Positions 12,948-36,594 of a DNA stretch of 64,000 nucleotides are shown one piece after another (the stretch's first letter is position 1; each line of letters starts with the position of its first letter). The notes below the pieces were generated by a model. The model was not told where the DNA came from. It worked only from the letters and a program-made list of their open reading frames with translations, and did no database searches. The stretch comes from Bacillota bacterium (GTDB taxonomy: Bacteria > Bacillota > SHA-98 > Ch115 > JABLXJ01). The stretch covers positions 62,001-126,000 of the forward strand of contig JABLXJ010000001.1 of NCBI GenBank assembly GCA_013178125.1, written 5' to 3'. The position numbers were made by a program, and so were the translations under genes.

Positions 12948-13646
12948 ATGGAAAAGCTGATTAGAGATATTGTCCTTTATCTTGATAGAAATCTCTCGTT
13001 GAGCCAGGACCAGCGGGAGATTGCGGAGTACGCCCTGTATAACATGTTGATCACATCCGGGACTGCGCTGGGGGTATTAGTAATAGGGAGCCTGGCCGGG
13101 GTGCTGCCGGAAGCGGTGATGGCTCTTGTAACGGGCGCGGTTTTCCGGTGGAGCACAGGGGGAGCTCATCTCCACAAGCCTTACAGGTGTATGATCATCT
13201 CTATCTCGATTCCGTTAATTATGGCATATATATCACGTATATCACGGGGGCTCTGGGGGCTTATGGGAGCAAAACTCATGGGAGCATATATGGCCGGCTC
13301 GAGCCAGGGAGCTATGCTGCTTGGCCTGGTAATCATCCTGTTTGTTCTATCATTTGTGATCATACGGCTTTACGCGCCTGCGGAGACCGAGAACAAGCCT
13401 ATTTCCCCGGGCCAGCGGGCCAGGATCCGGACCTGGGCCTATCTTACTTTGCTTGCGTGGGCAGCAATCATGGTAATCATGAGCTTTTTTTATACCGGAG
13501 GGGGCATGACTTTAGTCATAGCCAGCTGTCTGGGTTTAACGTGGCAAATGCTAAGCGTGACACCGGTTGGCTACAGTATCCTATCCAGGGTTGATGGTGT
13601 TTTTGACGCTCTAGAAATGTCATTTGGGAGAAGGAGGAATAGGTGA
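12948..13646 (+). CDS. agrB: AgrB-family peptide-processing membrane protease
   Basis: Membrane cysteine protease that cuts and cyclises the AgrD signal peptide. About six hydrophobic segments in 232 residues. The catalytic pair lies in TGGAHLHKPYRC: His74 and Cys81, the H-x6-C spacing of Staphylococcus AgrB (His77/Cys84). ATG 12948 begins the conserved MEKLIRDIVLYL; the frame is open further upstream to 12789, but that stretch lacks family character and its ribosome site is poor. The stop TGA overlaps the ATG of the agrD gene by one base, a tight translational coupling. Confidence 0.88.
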   Translation: MEKLIRDIVLYLDRNLSLSQDQREIAEYALYNMLITSGTALGVLVIGSLAGVLPEAVMALVTGAVFRWSTGGAHLHKPYRCMIISISIPLIMAYISRISRGLWGLMGAKLMGAYMAGSSQGAMLLGLVIILFVLSFVIIRLYAPAETENKPISPGQRARIRTWAYLTLLAWAAIMVIMSFFYTGGGMTLVIASCLGLTWQMLSVTPVGYSILSRVDGVFDALEMSFGRRRNR

Positions 13647-13768
13647 TGAGAAGGCTCATTCTCGGCGCCATAATGACGGGTCTGACCGTTATAGGGTTCG
13701 CTTCAGCTGCGGGTGCTTGCTTCCTATTCGGATATCAACCCAAGACTCCCGCCTGCCTGAGGAAGTAG
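13646..13768 (+). CDS. agrD: AgrD-like cyclic lactone autoinducer precursor (40 aa)
   Basis: A tiny gene immediately after agrB, with AAGGAGG at 13631-13637. Residues 1-22 form a hydrophobic amphipathic leader (RRLILGAIMTGLTVIGFAS). Then come Cys25-Phe-Leu-Phe-Gly-Tyr30 and QPKTPACLRK. The C-x4-YQPKxP pattern is the hallmark of the cyclic lactone autoinducer family of Firmicutes, where AgrB cuts before the QPK tail and joins the new carboxyl end to the cysteine. The predicted signal is therefore a thiolactone ring starting at Cys25 and ending near Tyr30; ring ends are an inference. A second cysteine (Cys37) lies in the tail. Confidence 0.88.
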   Translation: MRRLILGAIMTGLTVIGFASAAGACFLFGYQPKTPACLRK

Positions 13769-13833
13769 GGCGGATTCCTATTCCGGGATATTGTAGCCAA
13801 CCTGGTGTCCCCTTTTCACGGGGGTGTTGCGAA

Positions 13834-14328
13834 TTGGTTGAGGGAGTGCTATTATGGGCGCTCTTTGCAGTTCCAGAAGGTCTGCTTATGGTTATAGCTG
13901 GCCTGGGGTTCCTGGGTGTAAGGCGTTCTCTTAGACGGGCTATTGCGGTAGGGTTGATCGTCGGCACAGCCACGGTGATTTTTAGGTCCCTCTTGCCCGG
14001 TGGGTATCATGTTCCTCTGGTATTATTATCCTATTGCGTTTCTGTGGGCCTAATCCTGAAAGTATCGGCTAAGACAGCCATCATAGCATGCTTTATTTCT
14101 TCCTTCCTTATCAACCTGGGGCAAGTGTTAATTATATCACCTGTCCTCAAGGTGCTAGGCTTGTCATTTGAGGATGCCCTGCGCAGCGTCTGGCTCCACA
14201 TAGGATTTGGTTGGCTCGGTGATGCCATACTCTTTGTGGCTGCGATGCTTGTAACTCTGAGAAAGACTACGTTGATTCGGGTCCCGGAGTCGGAGCAACT
14301 GAGGGGTGCTGATAATCATGGACAATGA
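13834..14328 (+). CDS. Agr-locus membrane protein of unknown function
   Basis: About 164 residues with four to five hydrophobic helices (PEGLLMVIAGLGFLGV, VGLIVGTATVIF, VLLSYCVSVGLIL, ACFISSFLINLGQVL, AILFVAAMLVTL). Similar membrane proteins occur beside AgrB in other Firmicutes, and the pattern resembles the membrane half of AgrC-like sensors without the kinase. The frame is open from 13624, but the part before 13834 overlaps agrD and is not membrane-like. TTG 13834 after GGGGGTG is my best start; GTG 13846 is possible. It ends inside the next gene (11-base overlap), so receptor-like coupling to the cyclic-di-GMP enzyme is plausible but not shown. Confidence 0.7.
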   Translation: MVEGVLLWALFAVPEGLLMVIAGLGFLGVRRSLRRAIAVGLIVGTATVIFRSLLPGGYHVPLVLLSYCVSVGLILKVSAKTAIIACFISSFLINLGQVLIISPVLKVLGLSFEDALRSVWLHIGFGWLGDAILFVAAMLVTLRKTTLIRVPESEQLRGADNHGQ

Positions 14329-16012
14329 AGCACCTAAGAGGAACATCTATGACCCGCCTATTGAATTTGCGTTAATTGCCGGGATCGCAGTTGCTGCTCT
14401 GGCATTCCTAAATATGCTTCTTTTTCGATTCCCTGGTATTACATCCTTGGTAAGCATTATACCTGATTCCTTGATATATGCAGTATGTCTTAGCCTATTA
14501 ACAGCCTGTTTCTTCCTAGTGGTAATAATGCGCGGGCGCATGCTCATGGAGCTCAGGAATAACCAGGAGAAGCTCATGCTCAGCAAGATGTATGAAGAGC
14601 GCTTCCGGCTGACTATTGATAATGCGCCGATCGGCATGGCCATAGTGATGACCAATGGTCGCTTTATTCATGTGAATCACGCGCTATGTGAGATGGTTGG
14701 GTATTCGCCTGGCGAATTGCTTGACCTGACCCTCCAGGACATCGTCCACCCCGACGATTTGGAGGCCGACCTCTCTTTGTGTGAAAACCTCCTTCAGGGG
14801 GAAATACCCAGATACCAGCTGGAGAAGCGCTTCACGCGCAAGGATGACAATATCATCGACGTTATGCTCAGCATGTCCGTGGTGCGAGACTCACAGGGGG
14901 TGCCTGTTCACCTCATCGCCCAGTTCGAGGACATCACCGAGCGCAGGAAGGCAGAGGAGCAGATCAGATATCTGAGCTTCCACGATAAGTTGACCGGCCT
15001 TTATAACCGGGCATATTTCGAGGAGGAATTGGACCGGTCATCACATGAACAGGGGCAGATGCCCTTGAGCCTCATCATGGGGGATGTGAACGGCCTGAAG
15101 CTGGTGAATGATATCTTTGGCCACCGGGAAGGGGATCAGCTTTTGATCAAGATAGCTCAGATATTGAAGGCTTCATGCCGGGAGGGGGATGTTATTGCCC
15201 GCTGGGGTGGGGATGAATTTGCCATCATCTTGCCCCGGACCACTGCAAAAGCTGCCACGGAGGTTGTTGCGAAGATAAGAAAGGCGTGCAACGAGGCCGG
15301 CGTGGTCCCGATACAGCCAAGCATCGCCCTGGGGGCTGCGACCCAGGAGGAGGTCGCGGAGGATATTCAGGATGTCCTCAAGGAAGCCGAGGACCGGATG
15401 TACCGCAGCAAACTGATGGAGGGCAAGAGCATACGCAGCTCCATCATATCGTCCCTCCAGCGGACGCTGGCCGAGACTACTCATGAAACGGAGGAACATG
15501 CTTGGCGCCTGCAGGACCTGGCCTTGCGGGTGGGTCATGCCCTGGGACTGACGGACAGCAAACTGGATGAGCTGGTTCTCTTAGCTGTGCTGCATGATGT
15601 AGGTAAAGTGGCAATACCTGATAGCATTCTCATGAAACCGGGGCCTTTGTCACCTGAGGAGTGGGGGATCATGCAGAAGCATCCAGAGATAGGCTATCGT
15701 ATCGCACAATCCTCCTGTGAGCTGGCCCATATAGCCGAGGGGATCCTGGCCCACCACGAGCGCTGGGATGGAATGGGTTATCCCCGGGGACTCAGGGGTG
15801 ACGAGATACCGCTTCTCTCACGCATAATAGCCATTGTCGATGCATATGACGTCATGACCCACGAGAGGCCTTACAAGGCCCCGGTGAGCCCGCAGGAGGC
15901 TCTGGAGGAGCTTAAAAGATGCGCCGGCGGGCAGTTTGACCCGAAGCTTGTCGATATATTCGCGAATGTGGTCGTATCGAAGCCAGCCTGCGCAGTAACG
16001 GTTTCAGCCTGA
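14318..16012 (+). CDS. Membrane PAS-GGDEF-HD-GYP cyclic-di-GMP turnover protein
   Basis: Bifunctional-type enzyme of 564 residues from ATG 14318 (AGGGGTG upstream). Two N-terminal membrane helices (about residues 15-35 and 50-72), a PAS domain (about 92-215: IDNAPIGMAIV ... DITERRKAEEQI), a GGDEF domain (about 218-375) and an HD-GYP domain (about 380-555). The cyclase signature RWGGDEF is intact. RxxD (REGD) lies five residues before GGDEF, the inhibitory I-site spacing. The phosphodiesterase motifs HDVGK (about 426-430) and HHERWDGMGYP (about 479-489) are intact. Overlap with the preceding agr-locus gene suggests it carries out the response to the peptide signal. Which activity dominates cannot be read. 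Confidence 0.93.
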   Translation: MDNEAPKRNIYDPPIEFALIAGIAVAALAFLNMLLFRFPGITSLVSIIPDSLIYAVCLSLLTACFFLVVIMRGRMLMELRNNQEKLMLSKMYEERFRLTIDNAPIGMAIVMTNGRFIHVNHALCEMVGYSPGELLDLTLQDIVHPDDLEADLSLCENLLQGEIPRYQLEKRFTRKDDNIIDVMLSMSVVRDSQGVPVHLIAQFEDITERRKAEEQIRYLSFHDKLTGLYNRAYFEEELDRSSHEQGQMPLSLIMGDVNGLKLVNDIFGHREGDQLLIKIAQILKASCREGDVIARWGGDEFAIILPRTTAKAATEVVAKIRKACNEAGVVPIQPSIALGAATQEEVAEDIQDVLKEAEDRMYRSKLMEGKSIRSSIISSLQRTLAETTHETEEHAWRLQDLALRVGHALGLTDSKLDELVLLAVLHDVGKVAIPDSILMKPGPLSPEEWGIMQKHPEIGYRIAQSSCELAHIAEGILAHHERWDGMGYPRGLRGDEIPLLSRIIAIVDAYDVMTHERPYKAPVSPQEALEELKRCAGGQFDPKLVDIFANVVVSKPACAVTVSA

Positions 16013-16212: not shown

Positions 16213-17943
16213 ATGTCCGCAGTAAAAGTGATCTGTCTTGGCGAGCTCTTGATTGATTTCGTGGCCCTCGAGAAGGACGCCTCACTCGAGGAGACCTCGG
16301 GTTTTGCAAAGGCGCCGGGCGGCGCCCCGGCCAACGTGGCGGTCGGGGTGCAAAAGCTCGGCACCCCCGCCGGATTCATAGGAAGGGTGGGGGATGACCA
16401 GTTTGGAAGATTCCTTGCAGGCGTGCTTAAGACCCACGGCGTGGATGTCTCCCGGGTCACATACGACCCCTTTGCCAGGACGACCCTTTCTTTCGTGGCA
16501 AGGCGGAGCGATGGCACACGCGACTGCATGTTTTACCGCAACCCCGGGGCCGACATGATGCTGTCGAGTGATGATATGGATGAGGCCTATTTCCGCGGGG
16601 CGCGTATCTTCCATTTCGGCTCCATAAGCCTGATAGCCGGGGAGAGCAAGAAGGCAACCCTCAAGGCCCTGGAGCTCGCGCGGGCGGGCGGCCTCATCGT
16701 TTCATACGACCCGAATCTCAGAATAATGCTCTGGGACTCCCCTGAACGCGCCCGGGCCGAGATACTCGGCGGTTTCAAGTTCGCTGATATTGCAAAGGTC
16801 AGCGAGGAGGAGTGGGAGTTTATAACGGGCACGCGGGATCTCAAGGAGGGGGCGGAATTCCTTCTTGGCCTTGGCCCCAGGTTGGTTGTGGCGTCGCTCG
16901 GCGAGAGGGGATGCTACTTCAACGACGGGCGGAGGGAGGGTTACTTCCCCGCATTCAAGGTGGAGGTCCGGGATACCACCGGGGCCGGAGATGGGTTTGT
17001 GGCGGTTATATTGAGCGAGGTGACGCGTTTCCTCGAGGCCGGGGAAACCCTTGATGAGATCATAGCCAGGAGGCTCGATGACATTCTGGTGTTTGCAAAC
17101 GCCGTTGGGGCGCTTACAGCCTCCAAGATAGGCGCGATCCCCGGGCTCCCGACCCGGGAAGAGGCGATGGCGTTTATGCGAGAACGGTTGGGGGAGCAAC
17201 CATCGGAGGAGCGGTCGCTGGGGCAGCGCTCCGGGGAACAGCGACCTGGAGCGGAACAGCGGCCCGGGCCCGGGGCATCTGAGTTTTCGCCGGAGGAGCT
17301 TGCCGGCATGATAGACCACACGCTCCTCAACCCCCAGGCCACCCTGGGGGATGTCGATCGGCTCTGCGAGGAGGCCCGCCGGTATGGTTTTGCTGCAGTG
17401 GCGGTGAACCCGGCGATGGTTGAATTCTGCGCCCGGCGGCTTGCAGGGAGCCGGGTTGGTATCTCGGCCGCTGTTGGATTCCCGCTCGGCCAGGCTACGA
17501 CGGAGGCGAAGGTCTTCGAGGCCAGGGATGCCATAGCAAAGGGGGCATCCGAGGTGGACTTCGTCATAAATATCGGCAGGCTCAAATCCGGAGACCTGGA
17601 TTATGTAGAGAGGGAGATCAAGGCGGTCGTCGAGGCCTGCAGGGGCCACATAACCAAGGTCATCCTCGAGACCTTTTACCTTACGGATGAGGAAAAGGCC
17701 GCCGTGGTGGATATGGCCATCCGGGCGGGTGCAGATTTTGTGAAGACGTCTACGGGCTTTGGTCCCGGAGGGGCCACCCTCGAAGATGTGGCCCTGATGA
17801 AGCGGATTGCCGGCGATAGAATAGGCATAAAGGCATCCGGCGGCATAAGGACCCGCGAGGATGCCTTGAGGTTCATCGCGGCTGGAGCTACCCGGATCGG
17901 GACGAGCAGGGGGGTCGCGCTGGTCGCGCCGACGGAGGGGTAG
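16213..17943 (+). CDS. Fusion of PfkB-family sugar kinase and deoxyribose-phosphate aldolase
   Basis: A 576-residue two-enzyme protein. Residues 1-325 are a PfkB/ribokinase-family kinase: CLGELLIDFVALE, PGGAPANVAVGVQKLG and the catalytic loop TTGAGDGF. A Gln/Gly/Arg-rich linker (about 326-352) joins it to DeoC: MIDHTLL, EVDFVINIG, Schiff-base lysine in FVKTSTGF (about Lys511) and the second lysine in KASGGIR (about Lys540). Both domains look complete. A kinase making deoxyribose 5-phosphate and an aldolase splitting it to glyceraldehyde 3-phosphate and acetaldehyde would be consecutive steps, but the kinase substrate is inferred; its sequence is fructokinase-like. ATG 16213 follows GAAGAGG; the frame is open from 16087. 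Confidence 0.92.
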   Translation: MSAVKVICLGELLIDFVALEKDASLEETSGFAKAPGGAPANVAVGVQKLGTPAGFIGRVGDDQFGRFLAGVLKTHGVDVSRVTYDPFARTTLSFVARRSDGTRDCMFYRNPGADMMLSSDDMDEAYFRGARIFHFGSISLIAGESKKATLKALELARAGGLIVSYDPNLRIMLWDSPERARAEILGGFKFADIAKVSEEEWEFITGTRDLKEGAEFLLGLGPRLVVASLGERGCYFNDGRREGYFPAFKVEVRDTTGAGDGFVAVILSEVTRFLEAGETLDEIIARRLDDILVFANAVGALTASKIGAIPGLPTREEAMAFMRERLGEQPSEERSLGQRSGEQRPGAEQRPGPGASEFSPEELAGMIDHTLLNPQATLGDVDRLCEEARRYGFAAVAVNPAMVEFCARRLAGSRVGISAAVGFPLGQATTEAKVFEARDAIAKGASEVDFVINIGRLKSGDLDYVEREIKAVVEACRGHITKVILETFYLTDEEKAAVVDMAIRAGADFVKTSTGFGPGGATLEDVALMKRIAGDRIGIKASGGIRTREDALRFIAAGATRIGTSRGVALVAPTEG

Positions 17944-36480: not shown

Positions 36481-36594
36481 TCTTCTTATCTAGAGAAGGG
36501 GAGGGACAGGCCTGATGAACCTTCGGCAACCTTTGGATCCATGATCCAAAAGGTGCCAATTCCTGCCGGCAAGAACGCCGGAGAGATAAGAAGA
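36481..36594 (+). promoter_or_regulatory. SAM-I riboswitch (S-box)
   Basis: P1 arms TCTTCTTATC (36481-36490) and GATAAGAAGA (36585-36594) pair over 10 bases. Between them lie AGAG...GGAGGGAC, the TGATGAAC and CGGCAACC core, the TTGGATC-ATGATCCAAAAGGTGCCAATTCC arm and GCCGGCAAGAACGCCGG, all S-box hallmarks. The 3' P1 strand overlaps TAAGAAGAGG (36587-36596), which is exactly complementary to CCTCTTCTTA of the terminator, so S-adenosylmethionine binding frees the terminator and stops transcription of metY-metX-metW. Confidence 0.96.

Follow-up and report, generated by a model that had tools for sequence, protein, structure and literature searches.

An agr locus of a Bacillota genome in which a separate AgrC-type sensor homologue is followed by a predicted c-di-GMP enzyme in place of the kinase

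The Agr-type peptide signalling locus at positions 12948–16012 of a 64,000-nucleotide stretch of a Bacillota genome (contig JABLXJ010000001.1; the whole stretch is called the window) is composed of agrB, agrD, a gene for a small membrane protein, here called REC, and a gene for a membrane-bound PAS-GGDEF-HD-GYP protein, here called the effector. Judged from its sequence, the variant of Agr seen here is real, conserved and recurrent: the AgrC sensor has become detached, and an enzyme of cyclic di-GMP (c-di-GMP) turnover has taken the place of the kinase. We consider it likely that this is a rewired Agr system, in which the peptide would act on a complex of REC and the effector and thereby change c-di-GMP turnover directly.

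RESULTS

The locus and the absence of agrC and agrA

The four genes, all on the same strand, are as follows.

12948..13646, + strand: agrB, membrane peptidase predicted to cut and cyclise AgrD (PF04647, E 1.7e-31)
13646..13768, + strand: agrD, 40-amino acid (aa) pro-peptide MRRLILGAIMTGLTVIGFASAAGACFLFGYQPKTPACLRK (TIGR04223, E 1.1e-9, above the cut-off)
13834..14328, + strand: REC, TTG start, stand-alone 164-aa five-helix membrane protein, homologue of the AgrC sensor domain
14318..16012, + strand: effector, 564 aa, with two transmembrane (TM) helices, PAS, GGDEF (with RxxD) and HD-GYP

AgrB, the only one in the genome, scores 109.5 bits against a PF04647 cut-off of 23, and its translation carries the H-x6-C His/Cys active site in intact form (GGAHLHKPYRC). 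AgrD scores 38.1 bits against a TIGR04223 cut-off of 19 and contains C-FLFG-YQPKTP, with a predicted thiolactone ring of C-F-L-F-G and predicted cleavage before the Y. Both genes had been named in a preliminary description from the motifs H-x6-C and C-x4-YQPKxP, and the family matches bear these assignments out. With its TTG start at 13834, the N-terminus of REC aligns with the start of REC at a related locus, L062. The effector, which could instead start from a GTG at 14306, has hydrophobic helices at residues 17–35 and 52–70, matches PF00990 (E 2.5e-38), PF13487 (E 1.5e-36) and PAS_9 (E 1.2e-16), and keeps the RWGGDEF, HDVGK and HHERWDGMGYP motifs and the RxxD inhibitory site intact.

The agrB and agrD genes overlap by 1 base (TGATG) and the REC and effector genes by 11 bases, while 65 bases part agrD from REC; the locus therefore consists of two coupled pairs and not of a single uninterrupted unit. 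The preliminary description had read it as one translational unit, which stands for the two overlaps and fails at the gap. No histidine kinase or LytTR gene was found within the locus, and agrBD are followed, as had been described, by the small membrane protein and the membrane PAS-GGDEF-HD-GYP gene. Neither a c-di-GMP riboswitch in the window nor a promoter or terminator near the operon that could be distinguished from those in shuffled sequences was found.

The assembled genome amounts to 3.48 Mb and is 98.4% complete. Genome-wide, there was no match to SPOB_a, the Spo0B-type domain of AgrC-like kinases, or to LytTR, the domain of AgrA-type regulators. Two HATPase_c_5 matches, considered as candidates for a hidden agrC, were rejected, as sequence inspection showed them to be ordinary HisKA-type sensor kinases without an AgrC-like sensor. 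On these three grounds, no recognisable agrCA lies elsewhere in the genome. Compared with a canonical AgrC, which combines sensor and kinase in one protein or a pair of proteins, the locus has the sensor as REC and lacks the kinase, and an AgrA-type LytTR response regulator is missing from the whole genome. The earlier wording 'without AgrC/AgrA' thus holds for the kinase and the regulator, but not for the sensor half of AgrC.

REC is homologous to the sensor of AgrC-type kinases

REC had no Pfam or NCBIfam family, whether searched singly or as a family of 46. A homology search found relatives in 73 of 299 genomes of the phylum and a profile search did so in 156 of 398, and 140 REC neighbourhoods were annotated with purpose-built hidden Markov models. 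Most copies are stand-alone proteins of 150–200 aa, and some form the N-terminus of proteins of 441–496 aa with the order REC-2TM-SPOB_a-HATPase; at locus L079, REC is followed by Pfam matches to SPOB_a and HATPase. The fused forms at L079 and L093 adjoin agrB, agrD and a receiver-LytTR regulator, which is the content of a canonical agrBDCA locus. More frequent than the fused form is a split one, in which REC has a gene of its own and a 2TM-SPOB_a-HATPase kinase is encoded downstream of it. Exactly two helices precede SPOB_a in 58 of 60 kinases that follow a split REC, two helices stand at the same place in all 19 fused REC-kinases, and the hairpins of the two groups are homologous (hhalign 98.9%, E 3.5e-17), so a natural split into five and two helices (5+2) exists. 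In addition, agrB lies within 3 kb of REC in 135 of 154 REC copies. The fused and split homologues, together with the hairpin homology, indicate that REC is the sensor domain of AgrC-type kinases, often present as a separate gene in this phylum. REC of the window is, by homology, the counterpart of the N-terminal sensor of agr-linked AgrC-type kinases and is predicted to bind the peptide, which strengthens the earlier proposal of the membrane protein as the receptor.

A structure model of the window REC, built from a three-sequence alignment (window, L104 and L105), has five long helices, a predicted local distance difference test score of 81 and a predicted template modelling score of 0.77. 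Positive residues concentrate in loop 1 and at the C-terminal end, consistent with an N-out, C-in topology; REC and a two-helix hairpin would therefore add up to seven helices, and the catalytic part would face the cytoplasm. At least 90% of the REC family conserves three residues, R51, G57 and H59, which are located in the short loop that connects helices 2 and 3 or next to it; this loop would be extracellular and a candidate ligand-facing site. The fold search with the model gave no usable match in the Protein Data Bank (PDB) (Foldseek best E 1.0; VIA best Z 5.4, a helical protein), and no PDB chain matched REC in sequence. There was also no match to REC in viral contigs or to AgrB in phages.

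Three further observations concern REC and AgrB. Two tandem REC genes occur in the agr loci L080, L089, L090, L191, L236 and L245 and could mean heteromeric receptors or two signals. In L105 (83–812), a contig of an Ignavibacterium metagenome-assembled genome (MAG), a REC homologue overlaps by 8 bases an 82-aa open reading frame encoding a two-helix hairpin without a catalytic domain; either the contig is misbinned, or a truncated receptor pair exists outside Bacillota. An AgrB-like frame (28% identity) is present at 14469–15068 of plasmid record NZ_CP061968.1, an unannotated 27-kb record filed under Klebsiella, and the sequence is probably foreign or misassigned.

c-di-GMP enzymes recur in the position of the kinase

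The nearest effector was a kinase for 109 of the 154 REC copies (19 fused, 79 downstream and 11 upstream) and a c-di-GMP enzyme for 37, with none recognised for the remaining 8. The 37 cases fall mainly into three architectures. Architecture (a), agrB-agrD-REC-2TM-PAS(1–2)-GGDEF-HD-GYP, comprises three loci: the window, L062 from the same taxonomic order, and L063 from the same class. Architecture (b), agrB-REC-2TM-HD-GYP, was found at L077 and L094, with a hairpin that shows homology to that of the kinases (93%, E 3e-7). Architecture (c), REC-agrB-agrD-(5/6TM)-GGDEF-HD-GYP, is widespread, with 28 surveyed loci in 13 families. Among the kinase-linked RECs, those at L064 and L082 are closest to the window REC; their loci have the same gene order as the window and end in a 2TM-PAS-HisKA kinase in place of GGDEF-HD-GYP.

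The HD and GYP motifs were each kept in 33 of the 34 GGDEF-HD-GYP proteins found, whereas the GGDEF signature was degenerate or missing in 12, though intact in the window type. This pattern favours c-di-GMP hydrolysis as the predicted main output, with a GGDEF domain that is possibly regulatory. With both sets of motifs intact, the window enzyme may be bifunctional, with predicted cyclase and phosphodiesterase activity.

Two other loci combine these elements differently. A single contig, L189 (3997–9500), carries two REC genes: one belongs to a REC-agrBD-GGDEF-HD-GYP set, and the other precedes a histidine kinase of 693 aa. At L074 (2648–5614), a GGDEF-HD-GYP gene with another multi-helix N-terminus is divergent from agrB-agrD-REC, and its catalytic part is 55% identical to that of the window effector.

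Conservation within the class and separate origins

REC was present in 3 of 17 genomes of the class, the same three alone have AgrB, and all three carry the complete four-gene order, with REC/effector overlaps of 11 (window), 4 and 4 bases. The effector orthologues are 62% (L062) and 57% (L063, a MAG of UBA5449 in the same class) identical to the window effector, while GGDEF-HD-GYP proteins of class genomes that lack agr align to its catalytic or PAS part and not to the hairpin. The adjacency of agrB, agrD, REC and the PAS-GGDEF-HD-GYP gene, the conservation of which had been left to be checked, is therefore found in every agr-bearing genome of the class, and related arrangements recur across the phylum. 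A chance neighbourhood of agr and c-di-GMP genes was rejected, given only 10 HD_5 genes in 3.48 Mb and the same order in 3 of 3 class members. The window AgrD has a predicted ring of [CFLFG] and its relatives have [CWLWG] and [CFLWG], all followed by YQPKTPAC; the signal would therefore differ among species while the machinery is conserved, as is usual for agr. The tails of all three (window, L062 and L063) contain a second cysteine, which is not seen in most other AgrD tails.

In the REC tree, the window type is parted from widespread type (c) by a branch with 100/98 support, and a single clade of GGDEF-HD-GYP-linked RECs was not rejected by the approximately unbiased (AU) test (p 0.07). In the catalytic-domain tree, the window type clusters, with full support, with GGDEF-HD-GYP proteins from its class that are not linked to agr, one of which is 53% identical in this domain, while the domains of type (c) form another fully supported group with 30–38% identity. 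As the catalytic-domain groups are separate and the membrane regions and gene orders differ, the wiring of agr to c-di-GMP has probably recurred through separate recruitments, at least two in number.

Outside the locus, the window encodes at 16213–17940 a 576-aa protein in which a PfkB carbohydrate kinase is fused to a DeoC-type aldolase, with an IclR regulator further downstream, and carries a SAM riboswitch at 36483–36592 (RF00162, 93.8 bits).

DISCUSSION

The mechanism that we propose would begin with AgrB, which by its homology and that of AgrD would cut and cyclise AgrD into a five-residue thiolactone peptide around C-F-L-F-G. REC, the sensor half of AgrC as a separate protein, would receive the peptide and, within the membrane, pair with the effector's two-helix hairpin, rebuilding the 5+2 layout of the fused receptor kinases. 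The PAS-GGDEF-HD-GYP region of the effector would stand in the position of the kinase as the cytoplasmic part, and peptide binding would directly alter c-di-GMP synthesis or hydrolysis without a phosphorelay or AgrA. Such a two-part receptor is mechanically plausible, because in Staphylococcus aureus the last two helices of AgrC and its cytoplasmic domain are by themselves an active module (PMC3841183). The peptide-to-c-di-GMP interpretation of the preliminary description is supported by these results, and that the peptide acts directly on c-di-GMP is what we infer from them. As to the sign of the response, our guess, leaning modestly to one side, is that high cell density would lead to a net fall in c-di-GMP.

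Several findings weigh against this mechanism. The window architecture was found in three genomes only, and a genome of the same genus (G001) lacks it. The hairpin of the window effector showed no significant homology to the kinase hairpins (34% and 6% probability, with three sequences), so the 5+2 pairing at this locus rests on position, coupling and analogy. Furthermore, the PAS domain of the effector could carry a signal of its own, and the genome encodes two ordinary HisKA-type kinases elsewhere.

The last two points would suit a system in which the peptide is sensed by REC with a histidine kinase encoded elsewhere, or by that kinase itself, and the c-di-GMP enzyme is merely co-transcribed and answers its own PAS ligand. 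The two HisKA-type kinases do give weak HATPase_c_5 matches, and clostridial agrCA may be a separate operon or lacking (PMC12312760). However, both kinases are without an AgrC-like sensor, the genome has no SPOB_a or LytTR, the REC and effector genes overlap translationally in all three class members, and c-di-GMP enzymes repeatedly occupy the kinase position in several arrangements, all of which makes this explanation unlikely. We hold it to be similarly improbable that REC is an accessory of AgrB for processing, export or immunity, with information running from c-di-GMP to peptide production. REC adjoins agrBD in most loci and precedes agrB, often overlapping it, in the widespread type, as an accessory might, but in SPOB_a-HATPase kinases that neighbour LytTR regulators the same domain is the N-terminal half, which points to a sensor.

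It is also conceivable, though very improbable, that the adjacency reflects nothing but shared ancestry, being inherited in one small class with an incidental c-di-GMP neighbour and no functional link. The restriction of the window architecture to three genomes of one class would agree with this, as would the one-clade origin of GGDEF-HD-GYP-linked RECs that the AU test leaves standing. Against it stand the two fully supported catalytic-domain groups, the well-supported split between the REC branches, the different gene orders, and a third type with HD-GYP only; the repeated recruitment of the same chemistry would be unexpected without a function. The direct action of the peptide on REC and the effector remains our preferred reading.

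The canonical agrBDCA systems of Staphylococcus and Listeria (PMC12312760) share with the window locus AgrB, an AgrD with a five-residue Cys ring ([CFLFG] in the window and [CFMFV] in Listeria) and a polytopic sensor in the membrane, here a relative of the sensors of agr-linked AgrC-type kinases from other Bacillota. In contrast, the sensor here is a separate gene, there is no kinase or LytTR regulator, and the output is PAS-GGDEF-HD-GYP. In the open-access papers searched, the agr systems described either lead to AgrC/AgrA or are without a known receptor (PMC12312760). In Clostridioides difficile, an agr mutation alters the expression of c-di-GMP turnover genes (PMC3754575); that link is transcriptional, via AgrA, whereas here the enzyme gene sits in the agr operon in the place of the kinase.

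The closest functional analogue is RpfR/RpfF of Burkholderia, in which the fatty-acid quorum signal BDSF stimulates hydrolysis by the PAS-GGDEF-EAL enzyme RpfR (PMC9684580). The resemblance is one of logic only: in both, as proposed here for the window, a quorum signal would directly control one bifunctional PAS-containing c-di-GMP protein that works with the signal synthase. RpfR is Gram-negative, answers to a fatty acid, and unites receptor and enzyme in one protein, while the window system, which is not of the RpfR type, has agrBD as signal genes, a predicted cyclic peptide of ribosomal origin, a putative receptor that is a membrane protein of its own, and HD-GYP instead of EAL. In Xanthomonas, RpfC/RpfG places an HD-GYP phosphodiesterase under the control of the diffusible signal factor (DSF) quorum signal, RpfG being a response regulator phosphorylated via the kinase RpfC. 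There, too, a quorum signal leads to HD-GYP, but the window system has neither a receiver nor a kinase. To our knowledge, the known routes of peptide quorum sensing in Gram-positive bacteria lead either to a kinase or to a regulator that binds the peptide in the cytoplasm. A search of the open-access literature, with subscription papers and preprints outside its scope, gave no account of an agr locus that encodes a c-di-GMP enzyme. The locus suggests a short route by which the crowding of cells would act on the motile/sessile switch; it is apparently undescribed, although priority cannot be firmly claimed.

Beyond the window, we put it at slightly better than even that the detachable AgrC sensor is a general adaptor for kinases, HD-GYP phosphodiesterases and GGDEF-HD-GYP enzymes, and that, in an entire branch of Gram-positive peptide quorum sensing, the signal is passed directly by way of c-di-GMP instead of phosphorylation. 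The arrangement occurs in many environmental Bacillota, with a REC family that previously had no Pfam or NCBIfam entry. If the proposal is true, the sensor of AgrC is a separable subunit, and a split receptor would make the passage of the signal across the membrane in AgrC, a long-standing question, testable with two small proteins. The system would be a Gram-positive counterpart of RpfR, and a direct route from peptide to c-di-GMP would tie cell density to the decision between motile and sessile life in one step.

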